Source: Meiothermus luteus (GTDB taxonomy: Bacteria > Deinococcota > Deinococci > Deinococcales > Thermaceae). Taken from it: DNA of 32,145 nucleotides. Shown piece after piece: positions 1,194 through 31,229 of this stretch (the first letter of the stretch is position 1; each line of letters begins with the position of its first letter). Under the pieces are notes generated by a model that saw only the letters and a program-made list of their open reading frames with translations, had not been told where the DNA came from and did not search any database. The stretch lies in contig NZ_QWKZ01000025.1 of the NCBI RefSeq assembly GCF_003574085.1, forward strand, positions 1 through 32,145, read 5' to 3'. A program made the translations under genes and the position numbers.

Positions 1194-1244
1194 CGGGATC
1201 GGCAAGGATTGTGATGCAGAGCCCTTTTCATATTTCAAATGTCA

Positions 1245-1263
1245 TTATTTTAAGTCTAAATAA
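1245..1263. promoter_or_regulatory. AT-rich imperfect palindrome, possible MarR operator of the anthraniloyl-CoA operon
   Basis: TTATTTTAAGTCTAAATAA has 6-base inverted arms (TTATTT/AAATAA) around a 7-base centre, in the only AT-rich patch (about 1230-1264) between the divergent peroxiredoxin and the 15-kb operon. A MarR regulator is the third gene of that operon, and MarR sites are typically 16-20 bp AT-rich palindromes near the promoter. The core promoter here is unclear: TCTAAA at 1255-1260 is the best -10 candidate, with no convincing -35. Confidence 0.35.
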
Positions 1264-1309
1264 AAGCCGAGGCTCCAGCCAAAGACCCCCCGGCAGGCGA
1301 GGGATAAGG

Positions 1310-3643
1310 ATGAACATCGTGTGCATAGGCGGCGGACCCGCAGGGCTTTACTTTGCCCTGCTGATGAAAAAGCAAAACCCCAAGCACGAGGTTACCGTCT
1401 TGGAGCGCAACCGCCCCGACGACACCTTCGGTTGGGGAGTGGTCTTCTCCGACCAGACCCTAGGGAACCTGGAAAAGGCCGACTACCCTACCTACGACCA
1501 GATTCGCCGCGCCTTTCACCACTGGGACGACATAGAGATACACTTCAAGGGCCAAGTCATCCGCTCCGGGGGCCACGGCTTTGTGGGCATCGGGCGCAAA
1601 AAGCTACTGAACATCCTGCAGGACCGGTGCTTGGAGCTGGGGGTGAACCTCATATTCCAGACTGAGGTGACCGACGACGAGGTGGTGGCCCGGGAGTACC
1701 GGGCCGACCTGGTGGTCGCGGCAGACGGCATCCACAGCCGGGTACGCAGGAAATACGAGAGCACCTTCAAGCCGGATATAGACGTCCGCAAGTGCCGTTT
1801 TGTCTGGCTGGGTACCCACCAGCGGTTCCCAGCCTTCACCTTTGCTTTTGAGCGAACCGAGTGGGGCTGGTTCCAGGCCCACGCCTACCAGTTTGACGCC
1901 GAGACCTCCACCTTCATCGTGGAGACCCCAGAGGTGGTCTGGCAAAGGGCTGGGCTGGACCGGATGAGCCAGGAAGAGGGCATCGCCTTTTGCGAGCGGC
2001 TCTTCGCCAAATACCTAGGCGGGCACAAACTGATGTCCAACGCCCGGCACCTACGGGGTTCGGCCATCTGGATTAAGTTTTCCCGGGTGGTCTGCGAGAG
2101 CTGGGTCCACTGGAGCGGCCGGGTGCCGGTGGTGCTGATGGGGGACGCCGCCCACACCGCACACTTCTCCATCGGAAGCGGCACCAAGCTGGCCCTGGAG
2201 GACGCTATTGAGCTGGCCCGCACCTTTGAACGGATAGGCGACACCTTGGCCCACCTAAAAGAGGTGCTGGAGGAGTACCAGCGGGTACGGCGGGTGGAGG
2301 TCCTTAAGCTGCAAAATGCCGCGCGCAACTCCACCGAGTGGTTTGAGAACGTGGAGCGCTACAGCCACTTTGAGGCCCCACAGTTCGCCTATAGCCTGCT
2401 CACCCGCTCGCAGCGGGTCTCCCACGAGAACCTTAGGCTGCGGGATAAGAAGTACCTGGAGGGCTACGAGGCCTGGCTAGCCGAGCGGACCGGGCTGCCC
2501 AAAAAGCCCATCCCCCCTATGCTCCTCCCCTTCCGGCTGCGCGGCCTTACCCTGAAGAACCGGGTGGTGGTCTCGCCGATGGCCATGTACTCGGCCAAGG
2601 ACGGCTTAGTGAACGACTTCCACCTGGTCCACCTGGGGGCCAGGGCGCTGGGCGGGGCGGCCTTGGTCTTCACCGAGATGACCGCTCCTTCGCCCGATGG
2701 GCGCATCACCCCGGGCTGTGCGGGGCTGTGGAGCGAGGCCCACATGCGGGCCTACAAGCGCATCGTGGACTTCGTTCACGAGCACACCGACGCCAAGATA
2801 GCCCTCCAGCTCGGGCATGCCGGGCCCAAAGGCTCCACCCAGGTAGGCTGGGAGGCCCAGGACGAGCCCCTGCCGGAGGGGAACTGGCCCCTACTGGCCC
2901 CCTCCCCCATTCCCTACGGGCCCAACAACCAGGTGCCCCGGGAGATGACCCGCGAGGATATGGAGCGGGTCAAGGCCGATTTTGTAAAGGCGGCCTTGTG
3001 GGGGATTGAGGCCGGGTTTGACTGGCTCGAGCTGCACTGCGCCCACGGCTACCTGCTCTCGGCCTTCATCTGCCCCCTCACCAACCACCGCACCGACGCG
3101 TACGGAGGCAGCCTGGAGAACCGAATGCGCTACCCCCTCGAGGTCTTCAAGGCCCTGCGGGAGGTCTGGCCGGCCCACCTGCCGATCTCGGTGCGCATCT
3201 CGGCCCACGACTGGGCCCCAGGAGGCAACACCCCGGACGACGCGGTGGAGATAGCCCGGATGTTCAAGGAGGCCGGCTGCGACCTGATTGACGTCTCCTC
3301 CGGCCAGACCACCCGGCTGGCTCGCCCGGTCTACGGGCGGATGTACCAGACCCCCTTCGCCGACCGCATCCGAAACGAGGTGGGCATCGCCACCATGGCG
3401 GTAGGGGCCATCTACGAGGCCGACCACGTGAACTCCATCATCGCCGCCGGGCGGGCCGACCTATGCGCCATCGCCCGGCCCCACCTGGCCGACCCCCACT
3501 GGACGTTGAACCAGGTAGCCCGGCTGGGTTACACCGAGATCGAGTGGCCCAAGCAGTACCTCTCGGGCAAGGCCCAGCTCGAGCGCAACCTGGCCCGCGC
3601 CCAGGCCGAGCGGGCCGAGGAGTTGGCCATCCGCGGCGTATGA
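1310..3643 (+). CDS. Anthraniloyl-CoA (2-aminobenzoyl-CoA) monooxygenase/reductase, fused flavoenzyme
   Basis: A 777-residue fusion of two flavoprotein domains. The N-terminal class A monooxygenase domain has GGGPAG at 7-12 and the second FAD motif around Gly278-Asp279 ([15 protein letters not shown]). The C-terminal Old Yellow Enzyme domain begins near residue 402 and carries HxxHGYL with His576 and His579, then [10 protein letters not shown]. This architecture is that of 2-aminobenzoyl-CoA monooxygenase/reductase from the aerobic 'hybrid' anthranilate pathway, often annotated as bifunctional salicylyl-CoA 5-hydroxylase/oxidoreductase. It hydroxylates and then NAD(P)H-reduces the ring to 2-amino-5-oxocyclohex-1-enecarboxyl-CoA. 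The ATG at 1310 is preferred over an upstream in-frame ATG at 1211: it follows AAGG closely and starts directly on the FAD fold. It is the first gene of the operon, and its stop overlaps the next start by 4 bases. The neighbouring ligase supports anthraniloyl-CoA rather than salicylyl-CoA as substrate. Confidence 0.9.
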
Positions 3644-4404
3644 GACCCCTAGAAGGCCGACACGCCCTGGTCACCGGCGCCAGCCGGGGTATTGGGGGGG
3701 CCATCGCCCGGGCCCTGGGCGAGGCCGGGGCTGCCTTGAGCTTGCTGGGCCGCGACCGGCAGGCCCTCTTGGAGCGGGCCCGGGAGCTTGGAGGGGAGGT
3801 GCACGTGGAGGTTTGCGACGTGACCGACCCTGAGGCGGTGCGCCGGGCGGTGGAGGGCGCGGAGGCGGCCTGGGGGCCGGTGCACATCCTGGTCAACAAC
3901 GCCGGCCAGGCTGAGAGCCAGCCCTTCCTCAAAACCGAGCTGGCCCTGTGGCAGAGGATGCTACAGGTCAACCTTACCGGGGCCTTCCTCTGCACCCAGG
4001 CCGCCCTGCCGGGAATGCTCCGGGCCGGCTGGGGGCGCATCGTGAACGTGGCCAGCACCGCCGGGCTCAAGGGCTACCCCTACGTCGCAGCGTATGTGGC
4101 GGCCAAGCACGGCCTGGTGGGCCTGACCCGGGCCTTGGCGCTGGAGCTGGCCCGGAAGAACATCACCGTCAATGCGGTCTGTCCTGGCTTTACCGAAACC
4201 GGGCTGCTGGCGCAAAGCCTAAACCGCATCGTGGAGAAGACCGGCCGCAGCCCGGACGAGGCCCGGGAGGAGCTGGCCCGAACCAACCCCCAGGGCCGCT
4301 TCGTGAGGCCCGAGGAGGTGGCCCAGGCGGTGCTGTGGCTGGCGCTGCCCGCCTCCGCAGCCATCAACGGGCAGGCCATCGCGGTAGCGGGAGGAGAAGT
4401 CTAG
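3640..4404 (+). CDS. Short-chain dehydrogenase/reductase (SDR), probable hydroxyacyl-CoA dehydrogenase step
   Basis: A 254-residue classical SDR. It has the cofactor motif TGASRGIG at 12-19, NNAG at 86-89, and catalytic Ser139, Tyr152 and Lys156 in the usual S-13-Y-xxx-K spacing. The frame is open further upstream (to 3463), but the ATG at 3640 overlaps the previous stop (ATGA) and starts on the Rossmann fold, so I use it. In this cluster it is well placed to oxidise or reduce the alicyclic ring hydroxyl/ketone, or a 3-hydroxyacyl-CoA, made after dearomatisation of anthraniloyl-CoA. The exact substrate cannot be read from sequence. The next gene starts directly after its stop. Confidence 0.85.
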
Positions 4405-4890
4405 ATGACCACGCTGGAAAAAGACCTGGAGACCCGCCTGGCCGAGGACCACCACCAGGCCATCAAGCTCTGGCTGCGCCTTCTGACCTGCACCAACCTC
4501 ATCACCGGGAAAATCCGCAGCCGGCTGCGCGAGAACTTCGCGACCACCCTGCCTCGCTTTGACCTGCTGGCCCAGCTCGAGCGCCACCCCGAGGGGCTGC
4601 GGATGGGAGAGCTCTCCCAGCGCATGATGGTCACCACCGGGAACGTCACCGGGATTGCCGACCAGCTCGAGGCCGAGGGGCTGGTGCGGCGCGAGAGCGA
4701 CCCAAAGGACCGCCGTTCAGTGGTGCTGCGGCTCACCCCCAAGGGGCGGGAGGTCTTCAGTGCGATGGCCAAGGTCCACGAAGGTTGGGTTATCGAGTTC
4801 TTTGAGGGGCTTTCCCCGGAGGAGAAGGACACCCTCTACGCCCTGCTGGGCAGGCTCAAGCAACACCTAAACGGAAGGAGGAACCCATGA
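4405..4890 (+). CDS. MarR-family transcriptional regulator of the anthraniloyl-CoA operon
   Basis: A 161-residue winged-helix protein. The helix-turn-helix lies around residues 66-93 ([22 protein letters not shown]), followed by the MarR wing [13 protein letters not shown] at about 99-111, with flanking helices for dimerisation. It lies between the SDR and the crotonase, with no gap after the SDR stop and a 4-base overlap into the next gene, so it is co-transcribed with the enzymes it probably represses. CoA-thioester-responsive MarR proteins are typical in such clusters; anthraniloyl-CoA or a later thioester is the obvious candidate ligand, by inference. Its operator is perhaps the AT-rich palindrome at 1245-1263. 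Confidence 0.85.
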
Positions 4891-5717
4891 AGCGGCCCGA
4901 CGGCAGCCTCACCCTGGCCGACTACTCGGCCCGGCACTTCCTCTGGCAGGTGGAGGACCGGGTGGCCACCCTCACCCTGAACCGCCCCGAGCGCAAAAAC
5001 CCCCTCACCTTTGAGTCCTACGCTGAGCTGCGCGACCTTTTCCGGGCCCTGCCCTACGCCTCGGATGTGCGGGCGGTGGTGCTCACCGGGGCCCAGGGGA
5101 ATTTTTCCTCTGGGGGCGATGTGTACGAGATTATCGGCCCCTTGACCCAGATGAAAACCCCGGAGCTGCTGGCTTTTACCCGCATGACCGGGGACCTGGT
5201 TAAGGCCATGCGGGCCTGCCCGCAGCCCATCATAAGCGCGGTGGACGGGGTGTGTGCCGGGGCTGGGGCCATCTTGGCCATGGCCTCGGACCTCCGTTTC
5301 GGCACCGCCCGCAGCAAGACCGCCTTCCTCTTCGCCCGGGTAGGGCTGGCCGGGTGCGACATGGGGGCCTGCGCCATGCTGCCCCGCATTGTGGGGCAGG
5401 GCCGGGCCGCTGAGCTCCTTTACACCGGACGGGCCATGAGCGGCGAGGAGGGGCTGGCCTGGGGGTTCTTCAACCGGCTGTGCGAGCCCGAGGCCCTGCT
5501 GGAGGAGGCCCAGGCCTTCGCCCGGGAGCTGGCCCAAGGCCCCACCTTCGCCCACGCCATGACCAAGCGGATGCTCCACCAGGAGTGGAGCATGGGCCTA
5601 GACGAGGCCATTGAGGCCGAGGCGCAGGCCCAGGCCCTGTGCATGGCTACCCAGGACTTCCGCCGGGCCTACCAGGCCTTCGTAGCCAAAGAAAAACCGG
5701 TATTCCAGGGGGACTAG
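4887..5717 (+). CDS. Crotonase-superfamily (enoyl-CoA hydratase/isomerase) protein with altered catalytic residues
   Basis: A 276-residue crotonase-fold protein. The oxyanion-hole elements are present: NFSSGGDV at 72-79 and the AGAGA segment near 124-128. Where typical hydratases carry two catalytic glutamates, this protein appears to have Ile129 (GAILAMASD) and Arg151 (FARVGLAG). Asp158 in CDMGAC sits roughly where dienoyl-CoA isomerases have a catalytic aspartate. It is therefore unlikely to be a standard 2-enoyl-CoA hydratase; an isomerase, hydrolase or ring-opening role on the alicyclic intermediate is possible. The start at ATG 4887 has an upstream GGAAGGAGG and overlaps the marR stop by 4 bases. 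The next start, ATG 5718, follows its stop directly. Confidence 0.85.
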
Positions 5718-6899
5718 ATGAACCGCCTGCACCTCGAGTGGCCCTTCTTTGAACCAGAGCACCGCCGGCTGGCCCAGGAGGTCTGGGGCTGGGCCCAGAA
5801 GAACCTAGCGGAGCACCCCGAGGCCGACCTGGACAGCACCTGCCGGCACCTGGTGCGGGCCTTAGGGGAGGCCGGCTTCACCCGCTACGCGGTGGGGGGC
5901 CAGGCCTACGGCGGGGCTAAGGAGAGCATAGACACCCGGGCGGTCTGCCTCATCCGTGAGGCCCTGGCCTACCACCATGGCCTGGCCGACTTTGCCTTTG
6001 CCCTGCAGGGGCTGGGCTCAGGGGCCATCACCCTCTACGGCAGCCCAACGCAAAAGGCCCGCTACCTGCCCAAGGTAGCCCAGGGCCAGGCCATCGCGGC
6101 CTTCGCCCTCTCCGAGCCGCAGGCCGGCTCCGACGTGGGGGGGCTGGCCACCCTGGCCCAGCGAGAGGGTGAGGCGTACGTGCTAAACGGGGAAAAAACC
6201 TGGATATCCAACGGGGGCATCGCCGACTTTTACGTGGTCTTCGCCCGCGCCCCGGGCAGCCAGGGGGCCAAGGGAATAAGCGCCTTCGTGGTAGAGGCGG
6301 GTACCCCAGGGCTCGAGGTGGCCGAGCGGCTCGAGGTGATGGCCCCCCACCCCCTGGCCACCCTGCGCTTCCAGGACTGCCACGTACCCCACGCCCAGCG
6401 CCTGGGCCAGGAGGGCGAGGGGTTTAAGATTGCCATGCAGACCCTGGACATCTTCCGCACCTCGGTGGCCGCGGCGGCCCTGGGCTTCGCCCGGCGGGCG
6501 CTGGACGAGGCCCTGGCCCGCACCACCACCCGCCGGATGTTCGGCCAGACCCTGGCCGACTTCCAGCTCACCCAGGCCAAGCTGGCCCAGATGGCCACCC
6601 AGATTGACGCCGCAACCCTCCTCACCTACCGCGCGGCCTGGCTGCGCGACCAGGGCCGGCGGGTCACCTTGGAGGCGGCCATGGCCAAGCTTGTCGCTAC
6701 CGAGCACGCCCAGCAGGTGATCGACGCCGCGGTGCAGCTGTGGGGCGGCCTGGGGGTCAAAAAAGGCCAGGTGGTGGAGTCGCTTTACCGCGAAATCCGG
6801 GCCCTGCGCATCTACGAGGGGGCCAGCGAGGTGCAACAGCTCATCATCGCCCGCGAGCTCCTAAAAGCCTACCGAGAACGGGAGGAGGTTTCGGTATGA
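5718..6899 (+). CDS. Acyl-CoA dehydrogenase
   Basis: A 393-residue FAD-dependent acyl-CoA dehydrogenase of normal length. It has the FAD/substrate signature [15 protein letters not shown] at about 128-142, WISNGG near 162-167, and the C-terminal IYEGASEVQ with Glu367 as the probable catalytic base. It should introduce a 2,3-double bond into a CoA ester and pass electrons to ETF. Within this operon the natural substrate is an alicyclic or ring-opened intermediate downstream of anthraniloyl-CoA. It begins directly after the crotonase stop and is followed by a 28-base gap containing the ribosome-binding site of the ligase. Confidence 0.9.
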
Positions 6900-6927: not shown

Positions 6928-8544
6928 ATGGGGTACACCGCCCACGTAGACACCTTTGTCCGGGACAACCTGCCGCCCAGGTCGGAGTGGCCCGAGATCA
7001 TCTTCAAACTGCCCGAGCTGGCCTACCCAGCGCGGCTCAACGCGGCCACCGAGCTGCTTGACAGGATGGCCGAACAGCACCCCGAGCGCACCTGCCTGCT
7101 GGCCCCGGGGATCCGCTGGAGCTACCGCGAGCTTTTGGAGAAGGCCAACCGCATCGCCCACGTGCTGGTAGAGGACATGGGCCTGGTGCCAGGGAACCGG
7201 GTGCTCCTGCGGGCCCCCAACCACCCTATGCTGGTGGCGGCCTGGTTCGCGGTGCTGAAGGCCGGGGGCATCGCCGTCACCACCATGCCCTTGCTGCGGG
7301 CCAAGGAGCTCACCGAGGTCATCACCAAAGCCCAAATCAGCCACGCCCTAGGCGATGCCCGGCTCAGGGAGGAGCTGGAGAACGCCCGGCCGGGCTGCCC
7401 TAGCCTGCGGCAGGTGCTCTACTGGGGGGAGGGAGCGCTGGAAGGGCGCATGGAGGAGAAGCCCGACGAATTCCAAAACGCCGACACCGCCAGCGACGAC
7501 GTGGCCCTCATCGCCTTCACCTCGGGCACCACCGGCAAGCCCAAGGGCTGCGTGCACTTCCACCGGGACCTGCTCGCGGTCTGCGACACCTTCGGCAAAC
7601 ACATCCTCAGGGCTTCCCCTGAGGACACCTTCATTGGAAGTCCACCCCTGGCCTTTACCTACGGGCTTGGGGGGCTGGTGCTCTTCCCCATGCGCATCGG
7701 GGCCAAAAGCGTCCTGCTGGAGCGGGCCAGCCCGGAACTGCTGCTCCCGGCCATCGCGGAATTCAGGGCCAGCGTCCTCTTCACCTCCCCCACCGCCTAC
7801 CGGGCCATGACCGCCCAGGCTTCGGAGCACGACCTCTCCTCGCTGAGAAAGTGCGTTTCGGCCGGGGAGTTTCTGCCCCCTTCCACCCGCAGGCTCTGGA
7901 AGGAGGCCACTGGGATAGAGATGATAGACGGCATCGGGGCCACCGAGATGCTCCACATCTTCATCTCCCACACCGAGGAGGAGGCCAAACCGGGGGCCAC
8001 CGGAAAACCCGTGCCCGGCTACGAGGCCTGCGTGGTGGACGAGGAGGGCAACCCGCTTCCCCCCGGGGTGGTGGGGCGGCTGGCGGTGCGGGGCCCCACC
8101 GGCTGCCGTTATCTGGACGACCCCCGCCAGCAAAGCTATGTGCAGAAGGGGTGGAACATCACCGGGGACGCCTACTTGGTGGACGAGGAGGGCTACTTCG
8201 TCTACCAGGCCCGCACCGACGACATGATCATCTCGGCAGGCTACAACATCGCCGCCCCAGAGGTGGAGGACGCCCTCCTGCTGCACCCAGCGGTGGCGGA
8301 GTGCGCGGTGGTGGGGGCCCCCGACCCCGAGCGAGGGCAGATTGTGAAGGCCTACGTGGTGCTGCGGCCCGGCTATGGCCCCTCGAGCGAGCTGGTCAAG
8401 GAGCTGCAAGACTTCGTCAAGGGACAGATTGCCCCCTACAAGTACCCCCGGGCCATTGAGTTCCGCGAGAGCCTGCCCCGGACCCAGACCGGTAAACTAC
8501 AGCGGTACATCCTGCGGCAGGAGGCCCAGCAGGTGAAAGGCTAG
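6928..8544 (+). CDS. 2-aminobenzoate (anthranilate)-CoA ligase
   Basis: A 538-residue AMP-forming aryl-CoA ligase of the benzoate-CoA ligase family. The N-terminal YTAHVDTFVRDNLPP is characteristic of 2-aminobenzoate-CoA ligases as I know them. The P-loop FTSGTTGKPKG lies at 197-207, GATEM near 344, and the acyl-transfer lysine is Lys523 (TGKLQRY). The reaction is anthranilate + ATP + CoA to anthraniloyl-CoA, AMP and PPi in the cytoplasm. A strong AAAGGAGG precedes the ATG. It links kynureninase, which makes anthranilate, to the fused monooxygenase, which uses the thioester. Benzoate or salicylate as alternative substrates cannot be excluded from sequence. Confidence 0.9.
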   Translation: MGYTAHVDTFVRDNLPPRSEWPEIIFKLPELAYPARLNAATELLDRMAEQHPERTCLLAPGIRWSYRELLEKANRIAHVLVEDMGLVPGNRVLLRAPNHPMLVAAWFAVLKAGGIAVTTMPLLRAKELTEVITKAQISHALGDARLREELENARPGCPSLRQVLYWGEGALEGRMEEKPDEFQNADTASDDVALIAFTSGTTGKPKGCVHFHRDLLAVCDTFGKHILRASPEDTFIGSPPLAFTYGLGGLVLFPMRIGAKSVLLERASPELLLPAIAEFRASVLFTSPTAYRAMTAQASEHDLSSLRKCVSAGEFLPPSTRRLWKEATGIEMIDGIGATEMLHIFISHTEEEAKPGATGKPVPGYEACVVDEEGNPLPPGVVGRLAVRGPTGCRYLDDPRQQSYVQKGWNITGDAYLVDEEGYFVYQARTDDMIISAGYNIAAPEVEDALLLHPAVAECAVVGAPDPERGQIVKAYVVLRPGYGPSSELVKELQDFVKGQIAPYKYPRAIEFRESLPRTQTGKLQRYILRQEAQQVKG

Positions 8545-8546
8545 CG

Positions 8547-8954
8547 ATGGCGACCCAAGACATCCAGATCCTCCAACCCCCCGGCTGGCCCAAGCCCAAG
8601 GGCTACGCCAACGGCATCGCCGCACGGGGACGGCTGGTCTTCATGGCCGGCATGGTCGGCTGGAACCGGGAGGGGGTCTTTGAGAGCGACGACTTTGTGG
8701 CCCAGGCCCGCCAGGCCCTGAAGAACGTCCTGGAAACCCTGGCCGAGGCCGGGGGCAGGCCCGAGCACCTGGTACGGCTCACCTGGTTCGTGACCAGCAA
8801 GGCGGAGTACTTGGCCTCGCTGGAAGCCCTGGGCGAGGCTTACCGGGCCCTGATGGGCCGCCACTACCCCGCGATGACCGTGGTGGAGGTAAAAGCCCTG
8901 ATGGAGGACCGGGCCAAGGTGGAGATTGAGGCCACCGCGGTCATCCCGGAGTGA
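8547..8954 (+). CDS. RidA-family protein lacking the active-site arginine
   Basis: A 135-residue RidA/YjgF-fold protein with the family's ending YPAMTVVEVKALMEDRAKVEIEA. Canonical RidA enamine/imine deaminases have Arg in the motif PARxxVEV (Arg105 of E. coli RidA); here that position is Met110. This places it among the RidA-like subgroups that do not hydrolyse 2-aminoacrylate. Its place between the anthranilate ligase and kynureninase suggests a role in the pathway, where a 2-amino-cyclohexene (enamine) thioester must lose ammonia. Without the arginine the mechanism would have to differ, or the protein acts by binding. The ATG lies two bases after the ligase stop. Confidence 0.85.
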   Translation: MATQDIQILQPPGWPKPKGYANGIAARGRLVFMAGMVGWNREGVFESDDFVAQARQALKNVLETLAEAGGRPEHLVRLTWFVTSKAEYLASLEALGEAYRALMGRHYPAMTVVEVKALMEDRAKVEIEATAVIPE

Positions 8955-8963
8955 GGAGGTCTT

Positions 8964-10193
8964 GTGGTTCCCGCTGAGATACAAGCCCTTGACCAGGCCG
9001 ACCCCCTAGCCGCTAAGCGGGAGGCCTTTGTGATGCCGGAAGGGCTTATCTACCTGGACGGCAACTCCTTAGGGCCCCTACCCAAGCGGGTGGCGGAGCG
9101 GATGCGGGAGGTGGTGGAGCAGCAGTGGGGCCAGGACCTGATCCGGAGCTGGAACCTGCACGGCTGGATTGACCTGCCGCAAAGGCTGGGGACCCGTATC
9201 GCCCGGCTGATAGGGGCCGAGGCGGACGAGGTGGTGGTGGCCGATTCCACCTCGGTCAACCTTTTCAAGGCGCTGCTGGCCGCGCTGAAGCTGCGCCCGG
9301 GCCGCAGGGCCATCGTCTCCGAGGTGGGCAACTTCCCCACCGACCTCTACATCGCCCAAGGGCTGAGGGAGCTTTGGGGAAACTGCGAGCTGCGCTTTGT
9401 CCCAAGGGAGGGGATAGAGGCCGCCTTGGACGAGGAAACCGCGGTGCTCATGCTCACCGAGGTGGACTACCGCACCGGCTACCGCCACGACATGGCCCAC
9501 CTAACCCGGCTGGCCCAGGCCCAAGGAGCCCTGGTGGTCTGGGACCTGGCCCACAGCGCGGGGGCCTTCCCGGTCTACCTGAACGCCTGTGGGGTGGACT
9601 TCGCGGTGGGCTGCGGCTACAAGTACCTGAACGGAGGCCCCGGGGCCCCGGCCTTTCTCTACGTGGCGCGGCGGCACCAAAAGGCCCTAAAGCCCTTTCT
9701 GACCGGCTGGATGGGCCACCAGGCCCCCTTCGCCTTCAGCCCCACCTACACCCCGGCCGAGGGCCTGCGGCGGATGACCGTGGGCACCCCCCCCATCCTC
9801 TCCATGAGCGCCTTGGAGGCAGCTTTGGAGGTGTGGGAAGGGGTGGAGATGGAGCAGGTACGGGCGAAGTCGCTCAGGCTCACCGACCTGTTCATAGAGC
9901 GGATGGCCCCCCTGGCCGCCCGCTACGGCCTCGAGCTGGCCACCCCCCTCGAGCACGCCCGGCGGGGTAGCCAGGTGGCCTACCGCCACCCTGAGGGCTA
10001 CGCCATCGTGCAGGCCCTCATCGCCCAGGGGGTGGTGGGCGATTTCCGCCATCCGGACATCCTGCGCTTTGGCTTCGGGCCCCTCTACCTGCGCTACGCC
10101 GACGTGTACGAGGCGGTAGAGAGGTTCAGGCGAGTGATGGAAGAAGGCCTCTGGCAGGACCCCCGTTACCGGGAGAAAGCCCAGGTGACCTGA
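8964..10193 (+). CDS. kynU: Kynureninase
   Basis: A 409-residue PLP enzyme of aminotransferase fold type I. The Schiff-base lysine is Lys220 in GCGYKYLNGGPG, WDLAHSAG (Asp194) contacts the pyridine nitrogen, and DSTSVN at 94-99 binds phosphate. It cleaves L-kynurenine to anthranilate and L-alanine. The start is GTG 8964, four bases after AGGAGG, which itself overlaps the ridA stop. Its stop overlaps the kynA ATG by one base (TGATG). Its product is the substrate of the CoA ligase two genes upstream. Confidence 0.95.
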   Translation: MVPAEIQALDQADPLAAKREAFVMPEGLIYLDGNSLGPLPKRVAERMREVVEQQWGQDLIRSWNLHGWIDLPQRLGTRIARLIGAEADEVVVADSTSVNLFKALLAALKLRPGRRAIVSEVGNFPTDLYIAQGLRELWGNCELRFVPREGIEAALDEETAVLMLTEVDYRTGYRHDMAHLTRLAQAQGALVVWDLAHSAGAFPVYLNACGVDFAVGCGYKYLNGGPGAPAFLYVARRHQKALKPFLTGWMGHQAPFAFSPTYTPAEGLRRMTVGTPPILSMSALEAALEVWEGVEMEQVRAKSLRLTDLFIERMAPLAARYGLELATPLEHARRGSQVAYRHPEGYAIVQALIAQGVVGDFRHPDILRFGFGPLYLRYADVYEAVERFRRVMEEGLWQDPRYREKAQVT

Positions 10194-11017
10194 TGAAAGA
10201 AACCTATCAGACCGCCCACACCGACTTCAGCCGGGAGCTGTCCTACGGCGATTACCTTCGGCTGGACACCCTGCTGGAGGCCCAGTGCCCCCTCACCAAG
10301 GCCCACGACGAGGTGCTCTTTATCGTGGCGCACCAGGTGCAGGAGCTTTGGATGAAGCTCATCATCCACGAGCTCACCTCGGCAATGGCCCTGCTGGAGG
10401 AGGGCGTCGTGGACCCAGCCTTGAAGATGCTGAGCCGGGTCTGCCGGGCCCAGGAGCAGATGAGCCAAAGCTGGGAGGTACTAACCACCATGACCCCGGC
10501 GGACTACCTGGAGTTCCGCTGGGCCTTCGGCAAGGCCTCGGGGTTCCAGTCCTACCAGTATCGGCTTATCGAGTTCCTCCTCGGCAACAAGCAGCCCTTC
10601 ATGATGCGCCCCCACCGCCACCGGCCTGAGCAGTACGGGAGGCTCGAGCAGGCCCTGCGCTCCCCCAGCCTCTACGACCTTAGCCTGCGGCTGCTGCACA
10701 GGCGGGGCCTGAACATCCCCCCGGAGGTGCTGGAGCGAGACTTCGCCCAACCCTACCAGCCCCACCCGGCGGTGGCGGAAGCCTGGCTAACGGTCTACCG
10801 CCAGACCGGGCGCTACTGGGAACTCTACTACCTGGCCGAGAAGCTGGTGGACGTGGAGGAGAACTTCCGCCGCTGGCGCTTCAACCACCTGACCACCGTG
10901 GAGCGCACCATCGGCCACAAGCAGGGCACCGGGGGCACCGCCGGCGTTCCCTACCTGAGGCGGGCCTTGGAAATCGTGCTCTTCCCCGAACTCTGGCAGG
11001 TGCGCACGCTCCTTTGA
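10193..11017 (+). CDS. kynA: Tryptophan 2,3-dioxygenase
   Basis: A 274-residue haem dioxygenase of normal bacterial length that opens the indole ring of L-tryptophan to N-formyl-L-kynurenine. Family landmarks are LSYGDYL at 17-22, VAHQVQELWMKL with active-site His47, QYRLIEFLLGN in the middle, and the C-terminal RWRFNH (probable haem-ligand His232) followed by GTGGTAG. The ATG overlaps the kynU stop. It is followed by a 40-base gap before the importer genes, without an obvious terminator, so read-through into them is likely. Confidence 0.95.
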   Translation: MKETYQTAHTDFSRELSYGDYLRLDTLLEAQCPLTKAHDEVLFIVAHQVQELWMKLIIHELTSAMALLEEGVVDPALKMLSRVCRAQEQMSQSWEVLTTMTPADYLEFRWAFGKASGFQSYQYRLIEFLLGNKQPFMMRPHRHRPEQYGRLEQALRSPSLYDLSLRLLHRRGLNIPPEVLERDFAQPYQPHPAVAEAWLTVYRQTGRYWELYYLAEKLVDVEENFRRWRFNHLTTVERTIGHKQGTGGTAGVPYLRRALEIVLFPELWQVRTLL

Positions 11018-11057: not shown

Positions 11058-12224
11058 ATGAGAAAGGCAGTCTGGCTGTTGGTCCTTTTAGCCCTTGGCT
11101 TCTCGTTCGCGCTGGCCCAGCCCCGCACGGTCAAGATTGGCTTCGTGAGCACCCTCTCGGGCGGGGGGGCGGCGCTGGGGATTGACGTGCGGGACGGCTT
11201 CAACCTGGCCATAAGGCTCCTAGGCAACCAGCTTGGGGGGCTGCCGGTGGAGGTGCTGGCGGCCGACGACCAGCAAAACCCCGACGTGGCCCGCCAGGCG
11301 GTGGACCGGATGCTCAAGCGCGACCGGGTAGACTTCATGACCGGAATCATCTTCTCCAACATCCTGCTGGCAGTGGGCGAGGCCATCTTTGAGGAGAAGG
11401 TCTTCTACATAAGCCCTAACGCCGGCCCCTCGGAGTATGCCGGGGAACAGTGCAGCCCCTACTTCGTGAACGTGGCCTGGCAGAACGACAACCTGCACGA
11501 GGCCATGGGCCAGTACGTGCAGACCCGCCGGTTTGAGAACGTCTTTCTAATCGCCCCCAACTACCCCGCCGGGCGCGACGCGCTTACCGGCTTCAAGCGC
11601 TTCTTCAAGGGCCGGGTGGTGGCCGAGGTCTATCACCGGCTCAACCAGCTTGACTTCTCAGCGGAAATCGCCCAGATTCGCGCGGTACGGCCCAAGGCGG
11701 TCTATGCCTTTGAGCCTGGGGCCATGGGGGTAAACTTCATTAAGCAGTACGCCGAGTCGGGCCTCCTGCGTGAGGTGCCCCTCTTCCTGCCCGGCTTCTC
11801 CGCCGACTCCGACGTGATTCGCGCGGTGGGCAGGGCCCTGGTGGGGATCTACAACAGCTCGCAGTGGGCCCTGGAGCTCAACAACCCCGTCAACCAGCGC
11901 TTTGTGGAGGAGTTCCGCAAGGCCTACGGCCGCACCCCCACCCTCTACGCCTCGCAGGGCTACGACGCAGCCTTGCTCCTAGATACCGCCATCAAGGCGG
12001 TGGGGGGTGACCTGAGCAAGAAGGACGAGCTGCGCAAGACCATGTTGGCCGGCTTCAACAGCACCCGCGGGCCCATAAAGTTCAGCCCCAACGGCTACCC
12101 CATCCAGAACTACTACCTAAGGCAGGTGGTCCAGCAGCCCAATGGGGAGATCGTCAACCGGCTGGTGGGCACCATCTTCACCAACCACCGCGACGCCTAC
12201 GTGGATAGGTGCAGGCTCCGCTAG
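11058..12224 (+). CDS. ABC importer periplasmic substrate-binding protein (aromatic/branched-chain amino acid type)
   Basis: A 388-residue type I periplasmic binding protein (Peripla_BP_6/LivJ-like). The N-terminus MRKAVWLLVLLALGFSFALA is a clear signal peptide with probable cleavage after Ala20; there is no lipobox cysteine. The mature part starts PRTVKIGFVSTLSG. The segment FNSTRGPIKFSPNGYPIQ near the C-terminus resembles binding proteins for aromatic acids. ATG 11058 is chosen over an in-frame ATG at 11043 because GGAGGAGG lies between them at correct spacing. The likely ligand is tryptophan, kynurenine, anthranilate or a related aromatic, inferred from the operon. Confidence 0.9.
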   Translation: MRKAVWLLVLLALGFSFALAQPRTVKIGFVSTLSGGGAALGIDVRDGFNLAIRLLGNQLGGLPVEVLAADDQQNPDVARQAVDRMLKRDRVDFMTGIIFSNILLAVGEAIFEEKVFYISPNAGPSEYAGEQCSPYFVNVAWQNDNLHEAMGQYVQTRRFENVFLIAPNYPAGRDALTGFKRFFKGRVVAEVYHRLNQLDFSAEIAQIRAVRPKAVYAFEPGAMGVNFIKQYAESGLLREVPLFLPGFSADSDVIRAVGRALVGIYNSSQWALELNNPVNQRFVEEFRKAYGRTPTLYASQGYDAALLLDTAIKAVGGDLSKKDELRKTMLAGFNSTRGPIKFSPNGYPIQNYYLRQVVQQPNGEIVNRLVGTIFTNHRDAYVDRCRLR

Positions 12225-12227
12225 GAT

Positions 12228-13148
12228 ATGCCCCCTTCACTCCTGCTCGAGCAGCTCCTAAACGGCCTCCAGTTTGGCCTGATGCTCTTCCTGCTGGCCG
12301 CTGGCCTCACCCTGGTCTTCGGCATCATGGACATGATCAACCTGGCCCACGGCTCGCTCTACATGGTCGGGGCCTACCTGACCGCGACCTTTGTGGGCCT
12401 GTTGGGCAACTTCTGGCTGGCGGTGCCCCTGGCGGTGCTGGGCACCGCCCTCATCGGGATGCTCCTGGAGCTCACCGTGCTGCGCCAGCTCTACCGGCGC
12501 GACCACCTTTCACAGGTGCTGGCCACCTTCGCGCTCATCCTCATCATCAACGAGGTGGTGCGCATCATCTGGGGCTCCCAGCCCCTTCTGCTCTCTGCCC
12601 CAGAGGAGCTTTCGGGCCCAGTGGAAATCCTGCCGGGGTTGAACTACTCGGCCTACCGGCTCACCATCATCGGGGTGGGGCTCCTGGTGGCGGGGCTCCT
12701 CTTCTGGTTGGTCAACCGCACCCGGGTGGGGATGTGGCTCCGGGCCGGGGCCTCCAACCGCGAGATGGCCCAGGCCATGGGGGTGCCCATCCGACCTCTT
12801 TTCACCCTGCTTTTTGGGGTAGGAGCCGGGCTGTGCGCCATCGCTGGAGCTTTTTTGGGGCCCATTTTAGCGGTGCAGATTGGGATGGGCGAGAGCATCC
12901 TGATTTTGGCCTTCGTGGTGATCGTGATCGGGGGGATTGGCTCCATCAAAGGGGCCCTGGTGGGGGCCTTGTTGGTGGGCATCGTGGACACCGCAGGGCG
13001 GGCTTTTCTACCCCTTTTGCTCTCGCAGGTGGCCCCGCCCGAGGTGGCGGCCAACCTGGGGCCGGCGCTGGCCTCTATCCTGATCTACCTCTTGATGGCC
13101 GCGGTACTCTTTTTCAAGCCCCAAGGGCTCTTCCCGGCCCGTACCTAG
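12228..13148 (+). CDS. ABC importer permease, LivH type
   Basis: A 306-residue inner-membrane permease with about eight hydrophobic segments and the family sequence FGIMDMINLAHGSLYMVGAY near 33-52. The conserved cytoplasmic loop RTRVGMWLRAGASNREMAQAMG, which couples to the ATPase, lies at about 164-185. It pairs with the LivM-type permease that follows. The ATG lies three bases after the stop of the binding-protein gene, so the two are translated from one message. Confidence 0.92.
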   Translation: MPPSLLLEQLLNGLQFGLMLFLLAAGLTLVFGIMDMINLAHGSLYMVGAYLTATFVGLLGNFWLAVPLAVLGTALIGMLLELTVLRQLYRRDHLSQVLATFALILIINEVVRIIWGSQPLLLSAPEELSGPVEILPGLNYSAYRLTIIGVGLLVAGLLFWLVNRTRVGMWLRAGASNREMAQAMGVPIRPLFTLLFGVGAGLCAIAGAFLGPILAVQIGMGESILILAFVVIVIGGIGSIKGALVGALLVGIVDTAGRAFLPLLLSQVAPPEVAANLGPALASILIYLLMAAVLFFKPQGLFPART

Positions 13149-14819: not shown

Positions 14820-15526
14820 GCGCCCTGCTCCAAATTGAGAACCTGGAGACCTTCTACGGGGCCAGCCAGGTGCTCTTTGGGGTGAGCCTCGAGGTGGGCC
14901 AAGGCCAGGTGGCCACCTTGCTCGGGCGCAACGGCATGGGTAAGACCACCACCGTGCGCTCCATCATGGGCCTCACCCCGGCCAGGCGGGGCCATATCCG
15001 CTTCGCCGGGCGGCCCATTGAGGCCCTGGCCCCAGAGCAGATCGCCGCTTTGGGCATAGCCCTGGTGCCCGAGGGGCGACAGATTTTCCCCAACCTCACG
15101 GTAGAGGAAAACCTCATTGCCTTCGCCGCCAACCGCAGCCAAAGCCCAGACCCCTGGACGCTCCGGCGGGTCTACGGGCTTTTTCCCAGGCTACAGGAGC
15201 GACGCCACCACCTGGGCCACCAGCTCTCCGGCGGCGAACAGCAAATGCTGGCCATTGGCCGGGCCCTCATGACCAACCCCCGGCTGCTCATCCTGGACGA
15301 GGCCACCGAGGGGCTGGCCCCTCTGTTGCGGGAGGAAATCTGGCGGGTGCTGCGCCTGCTCAAGGAAGGCGGGCAGACCATCTTGGTCATTGACAAGTAC
15401 CTAGAGCGCCTTTTCCCCCTGGCCGACCGGCACACCATCTTAGAACGGGGCCGGGTGGTCTGGCAGGGGACCTCCGAAGAACTCAAGGCCAGGCCCGAGG
15501 TCTGGAAACGGTACCTGAGCGTATGA
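14816..15526 (+). CDS. ABC importer ATPase, LivF type
   Basis: A 236-residue second ATPase subunit. It has Walker A GRNGMGKT at 37-44, signature LSGGEQ at 137-142 and LLILDEATEGLAP at 157-169. It starts with GTG 14816 overlapping the previous stop, and its stop overlaps the arylformamidase ATG. In the usual LivF switch loop a histidine follows 'VE'; here the segment reads LVIDKYLERL, so the switch histidine is not at its usual place. That is seen in some aromatic-compound importers, but I am not sure of its meaning. Confidence 0.92.
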   Translation: MSALLQIENLETFYGASQVLFGVSLEVGQGQVATLLGRNGMGKTTTVRSIMGLTPARRGHIRFAGRPIEALAPEQIAALGIALVPEGRQIFPNLTVEENLIAFAANRSQSPDPWTLRRVYGLFPRLQERRHHLGHQLSGGEQQMLAIGRALMTNPRLLILDEATEGLAPLLREEIWRVLRLLKEGGQTILVIDKYLERLFPLADRHTILERGRVVWQGTSEELKARPEVWKRYLSV

Positions 15527-16335
15527 GCGAACCCTCCTGGATAGAACTCCAGTACAGCCCCCGGCTCACTGTGCCTGACGCAGCAGCCTACTTCCAGCGC
15601 TGGGCCGAGTCCTCCCGGGCCGCCCGCGAGGCCCTGCCCCACCACCCCAACCTGCGCTACGGGCCGGGGGAAAAGGAAACCCTAGACCTCTTCCCCGCTC
15701 CCCAAAGCCGCTACCTGCTCGTCTTCATCCACGGCGGCTACTGGCGGGCCTTTGACAAGGATGACTTCTCTTGGCTGGCCCCACCCCTAGTAAGGGCTGG
15801 TCTTAGCGTGGCGGTGTTGAACTACGCGCTCTGCCCGGCGGTCAGCATCGCCGAGATTACCGAGCAGTGCCGCCGGGCGGTGGCCTGGCTGCACCGCGAG
15901 GCCCCCCGCTATGGGGTGCATAGCCCCCTGCTCGTCAGCGGGCACTCGGCCGGAGGGCACCTGACCGCCGAGCTCTTCGCCACCCCTTGGGAGGCCTACG
16001 GCGTGCCCCAGGAGGCCTTTGCGGGAGGCATTGCCATCAGCGGGCTCTTTGACCTCGAGCCCCTTCTACAGGTCTCCTTCAACGCCGATCTGCGCCTTAA
16101 CCACAGGAGCGCCAGGGCCTCGAGCCCTGCCTACAAGCGGCCCACCCTGAAAGCACCCTTGCTCCTGGCGGTGGGGGCGCTGGAGTCGGAAGAGTTCCAC
16201 CGACAAAGCCAGCTCCTAACCCAGGCCTGGCCAGAGGTCTGCCAGGGGGTCCTCCGGGTTCCTGAGGCCCACCACTTCAGCGTCCTAGACGCTCTCGCCG
16301 AGCCCGCCAGCCCGCTTTGGCAGCCCTTCTTATAG
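15523..16335 (+). CDS. Arylformamidase (N-formylkynurenine formamidase), alpha/beta-hydrolase type
   Basis: A 270-residue alpha/beta hydrolase with HGGYW at 70-74 (oxyanion hole) and the nucleophile elbow GHSAGG at 140-145 (Ser142). An acidic residue lies in GALESEEF (Glu221 or Glu223), and the catalytic His is probably His251 in AHHFSVL. This pattern is that of AFMID-like kynurenine formamidases, not the metal-dependent bacterial KynB. It would hydrolyse N-formylkynurenine to kynurenine and formate, the one step between kynA and kynU otherwise missing here. It is the last gene of the operon, translationally coupled to livF (ATGA), and ends one base short of the convergent ligase gene. A generic esterase is the alternative, but the operon strongly favours formamidase. 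Confidence 0.85.
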   Translation: MSEPSWIELQYSPRLTVPDAAAYFQRWAESSRAAREALPHHPNLRYGPGEKETLDLFPAPQSRYLLVFIHGGYWRAFDKDDFSWLAPPLVRAGLSVAVLNYALCPAVSIAEITEQCRRAVAWLHREAPRYGVHSPLLVSGHSAGGHLTAELFATPWEAYGVPQEAFAGGIAISGLFDLEPLLQVSFNADLRLNHRSARASSPAYKRPTLKAPLLLAVGALESEEFHRQSQLLTQAWPEVCQGVLRVPEAHHFSVLDALAEPASPLWQPFL

Positions 16336-18230: not shown

Positions 18231-20882
18231 CTACGGCTCCAGGGTGGAAAGGTCGCCGGGGTCAGCCCCCAGCTCCTGGGCCTTTAGCAAACGGCGCATG
18301 ATTTTTCCGCTTTTGGTGCGGGGTAGGCGCTCCACGATAAGCACCTCAATGGCCAGGCTCAAGCTACCCAGTTGACGACGCAGGTGGGATTTGAGTTTGT
18401 CCGAAAGGATCGCCCGGGCCTCCAGGCTGGCCTCACGGGTCTTGAGGACCACGTAGACTTTGACCACCTCTCCCCCCTCAGGGTCGGGCACCCCTATCGC
18501 TGCAGCCTCGGCCACCGCGGGGTGGGCGAGCATGGCGCCTTCTATCTCCGCGGTGCCAATGCGCAGCTCCCCGGCCTTAATCACATCATCGGAGCGGCCC
18601 AGAAGCGCGATGTACCCCTCCTCATCGCGTACTGCGATGTCGCCGGTGGTGTAGCAGCCCGGAATGCGGCTCCACTGCTCAATGTAGCGCCTATCGTCGT
18701 TCCAAAAGGTGCGCATGAAGTGGGGGAAGGGTTTGCAGATGACCAGGTGCCCCTTCTCGCCAGGGGGAAGCTCCCGGCCTAGGCCGTCCACCACCCGCAT
18801 CTCCACCCCAGGCAGCGGTAGACCGGCCTTTCCGGGCTTGGCAGGCATGCACACCGGGGTAGAGAGGCAGGGTCCGCCGGTCTCGGTCTGCCACCAGTTG
18901 TCCAGCACGTGGGCCAGGTGGTTGCGGGCCCAGCGCCAGACCTCCGGGGCCAGGTACTCCCCCACGCAGCCCACCAGGCGCAAGGCGCCAAGGTCGGCCC
19001 CCTTGGCCCACTCCTCCCCGTGCCGGCGGAAGGTGCGTAGCCAGGTGGGGCTGGTCAGGAGGACGTTGACCCCGCACTCCTCCAGGGTCTCGTAGAAGCT
19101 GCCGGGGTCGGGGTAGTCCAGCCGCTCAGCCCTAAGCACGGTGGTCAGGCCCTCCAAGAGAGGGGCATAAAGCCCATAGCTGTGCCCCACAATCCAGGAG
19201 AGGTCAGCGGTGGCCCACATCACGTCCCCCTCCTTGAGGTCAAAAAGGGCGCGCAGGTGGTAGGTGATGCCCACCATATACCCCCCGTGCACGTGGACCA
19301 CCCCCTTGGGCTTCCCGGTGGAGCCCGAGGTGTAGAGGATGAAAAGGGGGTGCTCGCTGTCCACCGGCAAGGGCGGGGTGTTGGGCCGGTGGGCCTCCAC
19401 GAGTTCCCAGAACTCCAAGGGCCGGGCGTTGCCCCCCCGACTGAACCAGAGCACCTCCAGGTCCAGGTCCTGAACCGCCTCTTCAATCAGGCCGGCGAAG
19501 GGCAGGACCCGCCCCCCTTGGTACATCCGGTCGGCCGCTACCAGGAGCCTGGCTCCAGTGTCCACCAGGCGCTCCCGCAGGGCCTGGGCCCCCATCCCCG
19601 CCGGCACCGCCACATGCACCGCCCCTATACGGGCGCAAGCCAAAAAGGTGAGGGCCATCTCGAGCCCGGTGGGCATATAGACCGCCACCCGGTCGCCCGG
19701 CCCAACCCCCAAGGCCCGCAAACCCCCGGCCAGCCTGGAGGTCAGGTCGCGCAGCTCGCGGTAGGTGAGCTTGTGCACAGCGCCGTCCCCCGCCAGGGCG
19801 ATGAGGGCTAGGTGGTTGCGGCGAGGGCCCTCGGCGTAGCGGTCCAGGGCGTTGTAGGTAATGTTGGTCTCGGCCCCCACGAACCAGCGGTGGTGGGGGG
19901 GCTCGAGCCGGCAGACCTCCTTCCAGGGAGAGAACCAGAAAAACCTTCGGGCCCAAGCCGCCCAGAAACCCTCTGGGTCCCTCAGGCTCCGCTCGTATTC
20001 GGTCCGGTAGTCCCGCAGGTTGGCCTCGGCCACCAGACGGGGTGGGGCGGGCACCGCCTTCTCCTCGCAAGCAGGGGTAGGCGGCGGCTCGGGAAGGTTC
20101 TCCAAGGGCTGGGACAGCAGCTCCGAGCCTACCGAGACGGGTTCGGTGGGGTGGTAGCTCGAGGCCGCTTTGGCCACCTCCTGCACAGCCTGCACCAACC
20201 GAGTAAAGGCATAGGGAAAACGCCGGGAAGGGACCACCACCCCCAAGGCTCCCAGCACCCGCCCCTCCGGGTCAAAAATAGGTGCCGCCAGGCTGGAAAG
20301 CCCCAAGGCGTGCTCCTCTATCTCCACCGCAAACCCCATCCGCCGCACCTTGGCAAGCTCTTCCTCCAGGGTCAGGGGGTCAGTTAGGGTCAGCGGGGTG
20401 TAGGCCCGCAGGTTCTGTAGGTGGCCCGCCTGGACCTCGGGCTCCAAAAAGGCCAGCACCGCCTTGCCCAGGGCCAAGGCGTGAAAGCCCTCCGCGATGA
20501 CCTCCTCTACCCCGCTCAGCTTAGGCAGCCCCTGCCGACCACGGGTGCTAAGACGAAGCCGACCCTCCCGGTCAAGCAGGGCCAGGTAGGTCCGCTCACG
20601 GGTGCGCAGGTAGAGCTCCTCTAACGCATCGGCCAGTCGCTCAGGCTCCACCAGTGGAGCAGGGCTTCTGGCCAAGGCGGTCCTGGAGAGCTTGTAAAGG
20701 CTCCCCTCTCGTTCCGCAAACCCCTCGGCCACCAGGCTGGCCAGAAGGGCGTAGGCGGTGGAGAGGCTTTTACCCAAAAAGGCTGCCAACCGCGCTGCCT
20801 CCACCCCCTCGGGGTGCTCGGCTAGGTAGGCCAGCACCCTGAGGGCGGTTTGCACGGTGGTGAGCTTCCGAGTCTGGGCCAT
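18231..20882 (-). CDS. IclR transcriptional regulator fused to an acetyl-CoA-synthetase-like enzyme
   Basis: One uninterrupted 883-codon frame. Residues 1-70 form an IclR winged HTH (LTTVQTALRVLAYLAEHPEG ... SLSTAYALLASLVAEGFAERE). Residues about 75-240 are the IclR effector domain (EGFHALALGKAVLAFL; GFAVEIEEHALGLSSLAAPIFDPEG). Residues about 245-283 are a Pro/Glu-rich linker. Residues about 287-883 are a full AMP-forming synthetase with [11 protein letters not shown] at 517-527, [10 protein letters not shown] and Lys860 in [11 protein letters not shown]. The CoA-site motif is altered: D765-D766 is followed by VIKAGELRIG, so the usual V-S/A-G-H-R is replaced and Glu772 stands at the conserved Gly. 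The protein may be a DNA-binding sensor that reads acyl-adenylate or acyl-CoA levels. It is divergent from acsA and upstream of a second ligase, the obvious regulatory targets. Confidence 0.88.
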   Translation of the reverse strand: MAQTRKLTTVQTALRVLAYLAEHPEGVEAARLAAFLGKSLSTAYALLASLVAEGFAEREGSLYKLSRTALARSPAPLVEPERLADALEELYLRTRERTYLALLDREGRLRLSTRGRQGLPKLSGVEEVIAEGFHALALGKAVLAFLEPEVQAGHLQNLRAYTPLTLTDPLTLEEELAKVRRMGFAVEIEEHALGLSSLAAPIFDPEGRVLGALGVVVPSRRFPYAFTRLVQAVQEVAKAASSYHPTEPVSVGSELLSQPLENLPEPPPTPACEEKAVPAPPRLVAEANLRDYRTEYERSLRDPEGFWAAWARRFFWFSPWKEVCRLEPPHHRWFVGAETNITYNALDRYAEGPRRNHLALIALAGDGAVHKLTYRELRDLTSRLAGGLRALGVGPGDRVAVYMPTGLEMALTFLACARIGAVHVAVPAGMGAQALRERLVDTGARLLVAADRMYQGGRVLPFAGLIEEAVQDLDLEVLWFSRGGNARPLEFWELVEAHRPNTPPLPVDSEHPLFILYTSGSTGKPKGVVHVHGGYMVGITYHLRALFDLKEGDVMWATADLSWIVGHSYGLYAPLLEGLTTVLRAERLDYPDPGSFYETLEECGVNVLLTSPTWLRTFRRHGEEWAKGADLGALRLVGCVGEYLAPEVWRWARNHLAHVLDNWWQTETGGPCLSTPVCMPAKPGKAGLPLPGVEMRVVDGLGRELPPGEKGHLVICKPFPHFMRTFWNDDRRYIEQWSRIPGCYTTGDIAVRDEEGYIALLGRSDDVIKAGELRIGTAEIEGAMLAHPAVAEAAAIGVPDPEGGEVVKVYVVLKTREASLEARAILSDKLKSHLRRQLGSLSLAIEVLIVERLPRTKSGKIMRRLLKAQELGADPGDLSTLEP

Positions 20883-25987: not shown

Positions 25988-25996
25988 GGGTGTGGC

Positions 25997-26791
25997 ATGA
26001 AGCTGGCCCGCTTTATCTCCAAAGGCCGCCTCCTGCAAGGACGGCTGCAAGACGGGATGCTCATTGACCCCGCCGGGGAGGCCCACCACCCTGAGGAAGT
26101 GGTCTGGCAACTTCCGGTGCAGCCAGGCAAGGTGCTGGCCCTGGCGCTCAACTTCGCCGAGCACGCCGAGGAATTCGGCCTCCGAAAACCCACCGAACCG
26201 GCCCTCTTTTGGAAACCCAACACCAGCTTGCTCCCCCACAAGGGCACCGTGGTCTACCCCCGGGGGGCCCGGTTCATGCACTTTGAGTGCGAGCTGGCGG
26301 TCATCATCGGGCGCCCTATGCGTCGGGTCAAGGCCAAGGAGGCCATGGACTACGTGGGGGGCTACACCATCGCCAACGACCTGGTGGTGCGCGACTACGT
26401 GACCAACATCTTCCGCCCGCCCATCCGGGCTAAGGGCTGGGATACCTTTGGGCCGCTGGGCCCCTTCTACGTGACCGCCGACGAGGTGCAAGACCCCCAT
26501 GGGCTGGCCATGCGGGCCTACGTGAATGGGGAGCTGCGCCAGGAGGCCAGCACCCGGGGCATGCTCTTTAGCATCCCGGAAATCCTGGAATTCATCAGCC
26601 GCTTCATGACCCTGGAGGCCGGGGACGTAATCCTCACCGGAACCCCCAAGGGCATCTCCCAGGTCAGACCTGGGGACCTGATGCGGATGGAGATAGAAGG
26701 ACTAGGAGCCCTGGAAAACCCCATTGAGTGGGAGAGCGAGGAGGCCGAGCCGGTGGTTTCGGAGGAAGGAGAGCGCTCGCTGGTGCTATGA
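25997..26791 (+). CDS. hpaG: HpaG-type isomerase/decarboxylase, fumarylacetoacetate hydrolase family
   Basis: A 264-residue single FAH-fold unit. The metal site is formed by Glu97, Glu99 (FECELAV) and Asp128 (IANDLVVRD). His55 in LNFAEHAEE and the KGWDTFGPLGP segment (147-157) complete the active site. In enteric bacteria HpaG is a ~430-residue tandem of two such domains, with decarboxylase and isomerase activity; here one domain must either do both or act as one half with the partner elsewhere. It acts on 5-oxo-pent-3-ene-1,2,5-tricarboxylate and 2-hydroxyhepta-2,4-diene-1,7-dioate. It lies nine bases after the aldolase and overlaps hpaE by 4 bases. Confidence 0.85.
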   Translation: MKLARFISKGRLLQGRLQDGMLIDPAGEAHHPEEVVWQLPVQPGKVLALALNFAEHAEEFGLRKPTEPALFWKPNTSLLPHKGTVVYPRGARFMHFECELAVIIGRPMRRVKAKEAMDYVGGYTIANDLVVRDYVTNIFRPPIRAKGWDTFGPLGPFYVTADEVQDPHGLAMRAYVNGELRQEASTRGMLFSIPEILEFISRFMTLEAGDVILTGTPKGISQVRPGDLMRMEIEGLGALENPIEWESEEAEPVVSEEGERSLVL

Positions 26792-28305: not shown

Positions 28306-28317
28306 GAGGAGGCCCCC

Positions 28318-29775: not shown

Positions 29776-29778
29776 GTC

Positions 29779-30264: not shown

Positions 30265-31229
<965 letters not shown>

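Follow-up and report, generated by a model that had tools for sequence, protein, structure and literature searches.

The window, by which we mean the whole 32,145-nucleotide stretch of Meiothermus luteus DNA analyzed here, carries on its plus strand an operon that includes ABM, a flavoenzyme of the fused 2-aminobenzoyl-CoA monooxygenase/reductase type (1211..3643; NF006101, 1396.7 bits against a cut-off of 1078). Both FAD_binding_3 and Oxidored_FMN domains are present in this open reading frame, and the fused monooxygenase that an earlier note, made from the letters alone, had read beside a RidA-like gene is therefore real; homology begins at about position 1310, and the true start is uncertain. 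Profile matches identify the next plus-strand genes as those encoding a short-chain dehydrogenase (SDR; 3463..4404, with homology from about 3649 and a true start probably just past the ABM stop), a MarR-family regulator (4405..4890), a crotonase-family protein that is a candidate ring-opening hydrolase/hydratase (4887..5717; NF006107, 502 bits, cut-off 330), an acyl-CoA dehydrogenase (5718..6899), and a benzoate-CoA ligase family protein that is a candidate anthranilate-CoA ligase (6928..8544; TIGR02262, 350 bits, slightly below the cut-off of 375). The gene under study, which encodes a Rid/YjgF-family protein, starts 2 bases past the ligase stop and is followed 9 bases downstream by a kynureninase gene (8964..10193, plus strand; TIGR01814, 316.6 bits, cut-off 246.4), a tryptophan 2,3-dioxygenase gene (10193..11017, plus strand; TIGR03036, 407 bits, cut-off 390.7) and, on the same strand, branched-chain-type ABC transporter genes. 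With its fusion of an FAD monooxygenase to an OYE reductase, its aryl-CoA ligase, and its beta-oxidation-type genes, the operon has the makeup of an aerobic 2-aminobenzoyl-CoA (ABM) operon, and its gene content reads as a route from tryptophan through kynurenine, anthranilate, and anthraniloyl-CoA to a non-aromatic CoA ester.

None of the window genes scanned was recognized as a kynurenine formamidase; the conversion that lies between the tryptophan dioxygenase and kynureninase reactions may be carried out by an alpha/beta hydrolase whose gene closes the transporter set (15523-16335, plus strand). Elsewhere in the window, an 883-aa open reading frame on the minus strand (18231-20882) joins an IclR-type regulator (HTH_IclR and IclR_C) to a full acetyl-CoA-synthetase-like enzyme, an unusual regulator-enzyme fusion that adjoins two more acs-like genes. 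A plus-strand set at 25046-31229, encoding a DHDPS-family protein, an aldehyde dehydrogenase, an HpaB-type hydroxylase, a flavin reductase, and a glyoxalase-type dioxygenase, resembles a pathway for homoprotocatechuate (4-hydroxyphenylacetate).

The Rid gene (8547..8954, plus strand) translates from an ATG start into 135 amino acids and matches PF01042 (83.2 bits, cut-off 27.3), which places its product in the Rid/YjgF superfamily. The earlier note had described a RidA-like protein at this position with Met in place of the deaminase arginine, and this description holds: Met110 (codon 8874..8876) aligns with Arg105 of E. coli RidA both in phmmer and in a multiple alignment, made with MAFFT, that includes E. 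coli RidA, TdcF, RutC, YoaB, and YjgH. The MAFFT alignment also shows that Tyr20 (8604..8606) and Glu126 (8922..8924), the equivalents of E. coli Tyr17 and Glu120, are retained and that Gly96 (8832..8834) replaces Asn88, so that the site is altered at two positions and kept at two others. The protein thus shares its fold and its Tyr and Glu positions with the RidA/YjgF archetype (E. coli RidA, TdcF) but has Met and Gly where the archetype has Arg105 and Asn88, and it falls below the cut-offs of both the RidA profile (TIGR00004, 52 bits against 106.25) and the RutC profile (TIGR03610, 24 bits against 169.1), with Met also standing at the essential Arg104 of RutC. The only other PF01042 gene in the window's genome encodes a canonical RidA that keeps both Arg and Asn. 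Comparisons with eight same-family relatives, all with Met, gave dN/dS values of 0.05 to 0.21, indicating purifying selection; together with the existence of orthologues, these values argue against a degenerate or mispredicted gene, a reading that we rejected.

An AlphaFold2 model of the monomer (mean pLDDT 94.9) has the Rid fold. Its top match among solved structures is 5v4f (Z 18.9, rmsd 1.7, 128 aligned residues, 30% identity); the next row reaches Z 14.4, and E. coli TdcF scores 13.9. The 5v4f protein is Yersinia pestis YyfB, which we infer to be Y3550; it is assigned to Rid5/6 and likewise lacks the Arg, but its gene goes with an aromatic aminotransferase island instead of with ABM, and it fails as a 2-aminoacrylate deaminase (PMC7221256, in excerpt). 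A variable residue at the Arg105 column is consistent with Rid5/Rid6 (CDD like_5, like_6) as these are described in the excerpted text of PMC4433059.

We then compared this column across relatives. The earlier note had left open whether Rid proteins of other anthraniloyl-CoA clusters share the substitution and had held that retention of the Arg by orthologues in working clusters would refute its reading; the alignments give the opposite result. Among 83 relatives, comprising the window, 14 copies from a search of the phylum Deinococcota, and 68 from loci L018-L107 (three of them, L019, L026, and L027, without a long ABM match in the locus, and with one further member, L016, from a genome without ABM), the Arg105 column held Met in 82 and Leu in one, a haloarchaeon, and Arg in none. 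The Glu120 equivalent was invariant (83/83), the Tyr17 column held Tyr in 77, Phe in 5, and Leu in 1, and the Asn88 column held Gly in 82 and Ala in 1. In 30 of the 37 Rid copies from Chloroflexota, the Arg105 column held Met in 14, Thr in 9, Ser in 6, Leu in 1, and again no Arg, and Gly96 and Glu126 were present in all 30. Met as the sole signature of the clade was dropped, since Chloroflexota copies also carry Thr, Ser, or Leu. In these alignments, loss of the Arg is universal in the clade with Met as its commonest replacement, and the stable trait is Arg loss together with Gly96.

A tree of 172 rows and 131 columns, built after removal of identical rows and of near-duplicates from the window's genus, has many open forks but gathers the Met/Thr/Ser/Leu ABM-type rows into a single 132-row clade (support 100/92) with no Arg, and the Arg rows lie across one branch (95/82) from it. 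As a paralogue control, 30 PF01042 loci were taken from ten ABM-bearing genomes; the 29 that could be aligned comprised 18 with Arg, 3 with Met and Gly, 2 with Met and Arg at column 96, and 6 with Trp, Ala, Asp, or Asn. The two with Met and Arg at the Asn88 column, L165 and L168, are paralogues in Ensifer and Rhizobium genomes and group in the tree with the Arg rows outside the ABM clade. With L027, they refute the idea that Met is restricted to ABM clusters. The L027 copy (11968-12399, on an Aminobacter plasmid), a Rid of the Met type, has an LLM flavin oxidoreductase, an AMP-binding ligase, and a thiolase as neighbors, with no ABM; this locus perhaps represents another CoA-enamine pathway.

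Rid and ABM occur together across genomes. Among 111 Deinococcota genomes, 14 have ABM, 15 have a close relative of the window Rid, and 14 have both; within the window's genus, the two genes are jointly present (13 genomes, including the window's own) or jointly absent (5 others listed). The sole Deinococcota Rid without ABM, L016, lies on a 3.5-kb contig (G095:C161) of an assembly with 9% contamination, and its row falls among Betaproteobacteria; it is probably a contaminant. Among 301 Chloroflexota genomes, 38 have ABM, 37 have Rid, and 32 have both (Fisher P of ~8e-32), although neither set of counts is corrected for shared ancestry. In 25 of these 32 pairs the genes share a contig within 9.5 kb, with a median gap of 1.8 kb. 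The Chloroflexota exceptions are six of the 38 ABM genomes without such a Rid at the threshold and five Rid genomes without ABM.

A scan that started from ABM instead, limited to the top 80 of 589 relatives, most of them betaproteobacterial, and using tblastn with 7 Rid queries at an E value of 1e-5, found Rid in 59 of the 80 loci and in 46 of the 52 with full 10-kb flanks. In four of the six full-flank loci of this set that lacked it (L046, L078, L088, and L104), a search of the whole genome places Rid slightly beyond the flank, as judged from matching coordinates; the remaining two are L091, of the gentisate type discussed below, and L089, which has ABM but no Rid detected by tblastn within 10 kb and is unexplained. 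The L029 and L032 genomes gave only weak matches to the window Rid, and the strongest of these is of the Arg type. Most loci with Rid also carry genes for an SDR, a crotonase, and an acyl-CoA dehydrogenase. An actinobacterial variant of the cluster, with genes for a thioesterase, a small cupin, and FAH, retains a Rid with Met, and the pAL1 cluster of Arthrobacter Rue61a includes an M-type Rid. Altogether, linkage of the ABM-type Rid spans Deinococcota, Chloroflexota, Proteobacteria, Actinomycetota, and one haloarchaeon.

Five loci (L021, L091, L202, L204, and L205) provide a negative control. In each, a monooxygenase like ABM is encoded together with a dioxygenase of the double-cupin type and a member of the fumarylacetoacetate hydrolase family, a gene content that suggests a route from salicylyl-CoA to gentisate, with a substrate free of amine. 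No Rid was found near ABM in any of the five by tblastn at a relaxed E value of 0.01, apart from a chance-level 28-bit match in L091. Three of the five monooxygenases are 64 to 67% identical to the window ABM, versus 52% for that of the Rid-bearing actinobacterial locus L203, so similarity of the monooxygenase is not what drives the presence of Rid. Rid instead appears to follow the nitrogen. The L091 genome has an M-type Rid elsewhere, beside ligase, dehydrogenase, and crotonase genes. Gentisate-type and anthranilate-type clusters alike carry a monooxygenase that NCBI names "bifunctional salicylyl-CoA 5-hydroxylase/oxidoreductase"; Rid beside the monooxygenase appears to mark the amine (anthranilate) branch and could serve as a genomic marker for the substrate.

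What the Arg does in characterized Rid proteins is described in the sources excerpted for this work. Arg105/107 touches the ligand carboxylate in TdcF and human hp14.5, its replacement with Ala nearly abolishes activity, and hydrolysis of 2-aminoacrylate by RidA requires it (PMC4433059, with PMC8113886 also for the last). RutC, a beta-enamino-acid deaminase acting on the free carboxylate of 3-aminoacrylate, needs Arg104 (PMC8113886), and 2-aminomuconate deaminase AmnE (6izh) keeps Arg117 in its cleft (PMC6742747). Arg-less Rid7 and Y3550 showed no deaminase activity (PMC4433059; PMC7221256), Arg-less subfamilies are called "mysterious" (PMC4433059) or presumed not to be deaminases (PMC5619798), and the excerpts of PMC8113886 and PMC5619798 report no deaminase activity for any Arg-less Rid. 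For the pathway itself, anthranilate-grown Arthrobacter Rue61a contains a CoA ester of C7H8O4, possibly cyclohexanedione-carboxyl-CoA (PMC3534580), i.e., a sign in that excerpt of deamination at the thioester level. The excerpted literature searched assigns no enzyme to the deamination step of the aerobic 2-aminobenzoyl-CoA pathway, and our limited literature collection yielded no published link between ABM and Rid or between RidA and anthraniloyl-CoA or aminobenzoyl-CoA.

We consider it probable that the window Rid is a deaminase of the ABM product as its CoA thioester and that the Arg is dispensable there, because the carboxylate that it would bind is here a CoA thioester. A CoA thioester offers no carboxylate for an Arg to hold. 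The ABM product would retain its carboxyl as the CoA thioester, and the window Rid would remove ammonia from it, with Tyr and Glu, the proposed placers of substrate and water, retained for the same chemistry. Replacement of the Arg by a neutral residue (Met or, in outlying lineages, Thr, Ser, or Leu) and of Asn88 by Gly would suit a thioester substrate; this combination of changed and kept residues is what is expected of the same chemistry performed on a thioester. Deamination would yield a beta-keto thioester that the operon's crotonase-family enzyme could open. Points against this reading are that Met is non-essential, as the Thr, Ser, and Leu variants show, that Met also occurs away from ABM (L027, L165, and L168), that Y3550 failed with 2-aminoacrylate, and that the ABM product may hydrolyze unaided. 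For the clade as a whole, the Rid family assignment, the absence of the Arg and the fixation of that absence, the linkage to the monooxygenase, and the absence from gentisate-type clusters are plain from sequence comparison. It is reasonably likely that the Arg-free clade comprises true deaminases acting on enamines that carry their carboxyl group as a CoA thioester. The reaction, its CoA-thioester substrate, what Met and Gly do, and how the later steps are ordered are inferred.

The earlier note had proposed either a deaminase of different mechanism specialized for a CoA thioester or a non-enzymatic binder. Of these, a binder or chaperone, in which the Rid fold would hold, shield, or channel the ABM product or another CoA ester without hydrolysis, seems unlikely to us. 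It would explain the absence of an Arg that is held to determine deaminase activity (PMC4433059, PMC5619798) and agrees with the inactivity of Arg-less Rid7 and Y3550. It does not fit well with the near-complete retention of the Glu and Tyr/Phe positions (83/83 and 82/83) or with a Rid linkage that tracks the amine-bearing branch, and in the excerpted texts the Arg-less proteins found inactive were assayed on free imino/enamino acids only, with no mention in the excerpt of PMC7221256 of a CoA enamine as substrate. Linkage to ABM across phyla and the absence of Rid from all five gentisate-type loci favor specialization for a CoA thioester over binding. The "different mechanism" of the earlier note is not required, since Tyr and Glu are kept and it is the carboxylate-binding Arg, with Asn88, that is altered. 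The comparative evidence strengthens the interpretation as a deaminase, which is not proven.

Two further explanations concern what else the protein might deaminate. Deamination could come later, after the SDR has reduced the 5-oxo group, after ring opening, or, in the actinobacterial variant, on a free amino acid released by the thioesterase; the SDR, crotonase, and acyl-CoA dehydrogenase genes beside Rid in most loci, and the thioesterase, small cupin, and FAH genes beside it in actinobacterial clusters, would allow this. We regard such a later substrate as improbable, given that the C7H8O4-CoA ester fits deamination straight after ABM (PMC3534580, in excerpt) and that Met is kept in the thioesterase variant, where a free-acid substrate should favor Arg. 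The kynureninase gene just downstream suggests instead that Rid clears 2-aminoacrylate-type intermediates from a neighboring PLP enzyme, and RidA genes do frequently cluster with PLP-enzyme genes (excerpt of PMC4433059). Such damage control is very improbable here, as no kynureninase is present in the stretches fetched for 56 of the 59 ABM-linked Rid loci among the best 80 of 589, the Arg is needed for this reaction in RidA, and the window's genome has its separate Arg-bearing RidA.

Under the preferred reading, deamination of the ABM product as a CoA thioester, the closest analogue of the proposed chemistry would be that of RutC, a pathway-dedicated Rid whose beta-enamino carboxyl substrate arises downstream of a flavin monooxygenase (PMC8113886, in excerpt). 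Its substrate, 3-aminoacrylate, is the free-acid analogue of the beta-enamino thioester, and RutC differs in its free carboxylate substrate and its essential Arg. AmnE is likewise a Rid-family deaminase in the catabolism of an aromatic amine, but its substrate bears free carboxylates (PMC6742747, in excerpt). The surrounding operon resembles the aerobic 2-aminobenzoyl-CoA pathway of Azoarcus evansii and Arthrobacter Rue61a, as far as the excerpts describe it, in its ligase, fused monooxygenase/reductase, and beta-oxidation-type enzymes.

The comparison of sequences and gene neighborhoods points to a clade of Arg-less Rids associated with a single catabolic step. Our proposal assigns to one set of Arg-less Rids a specific substrate and a specific place in a pathway, and it offers a chemical explanation for the absent residue. 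If it is true, Arg105 would be a handle for the carboxylate and not a catalytic residue, and the rule that an Arg-less Rid is not a deaminase would be wrong, in conflict with the published use of Arg105 as a predictor of deaminase activity. Aerobic CoA-dependent degradation of anthranilate would then have its missing deamination enzyme, both in bacteria and in haloarchaea.
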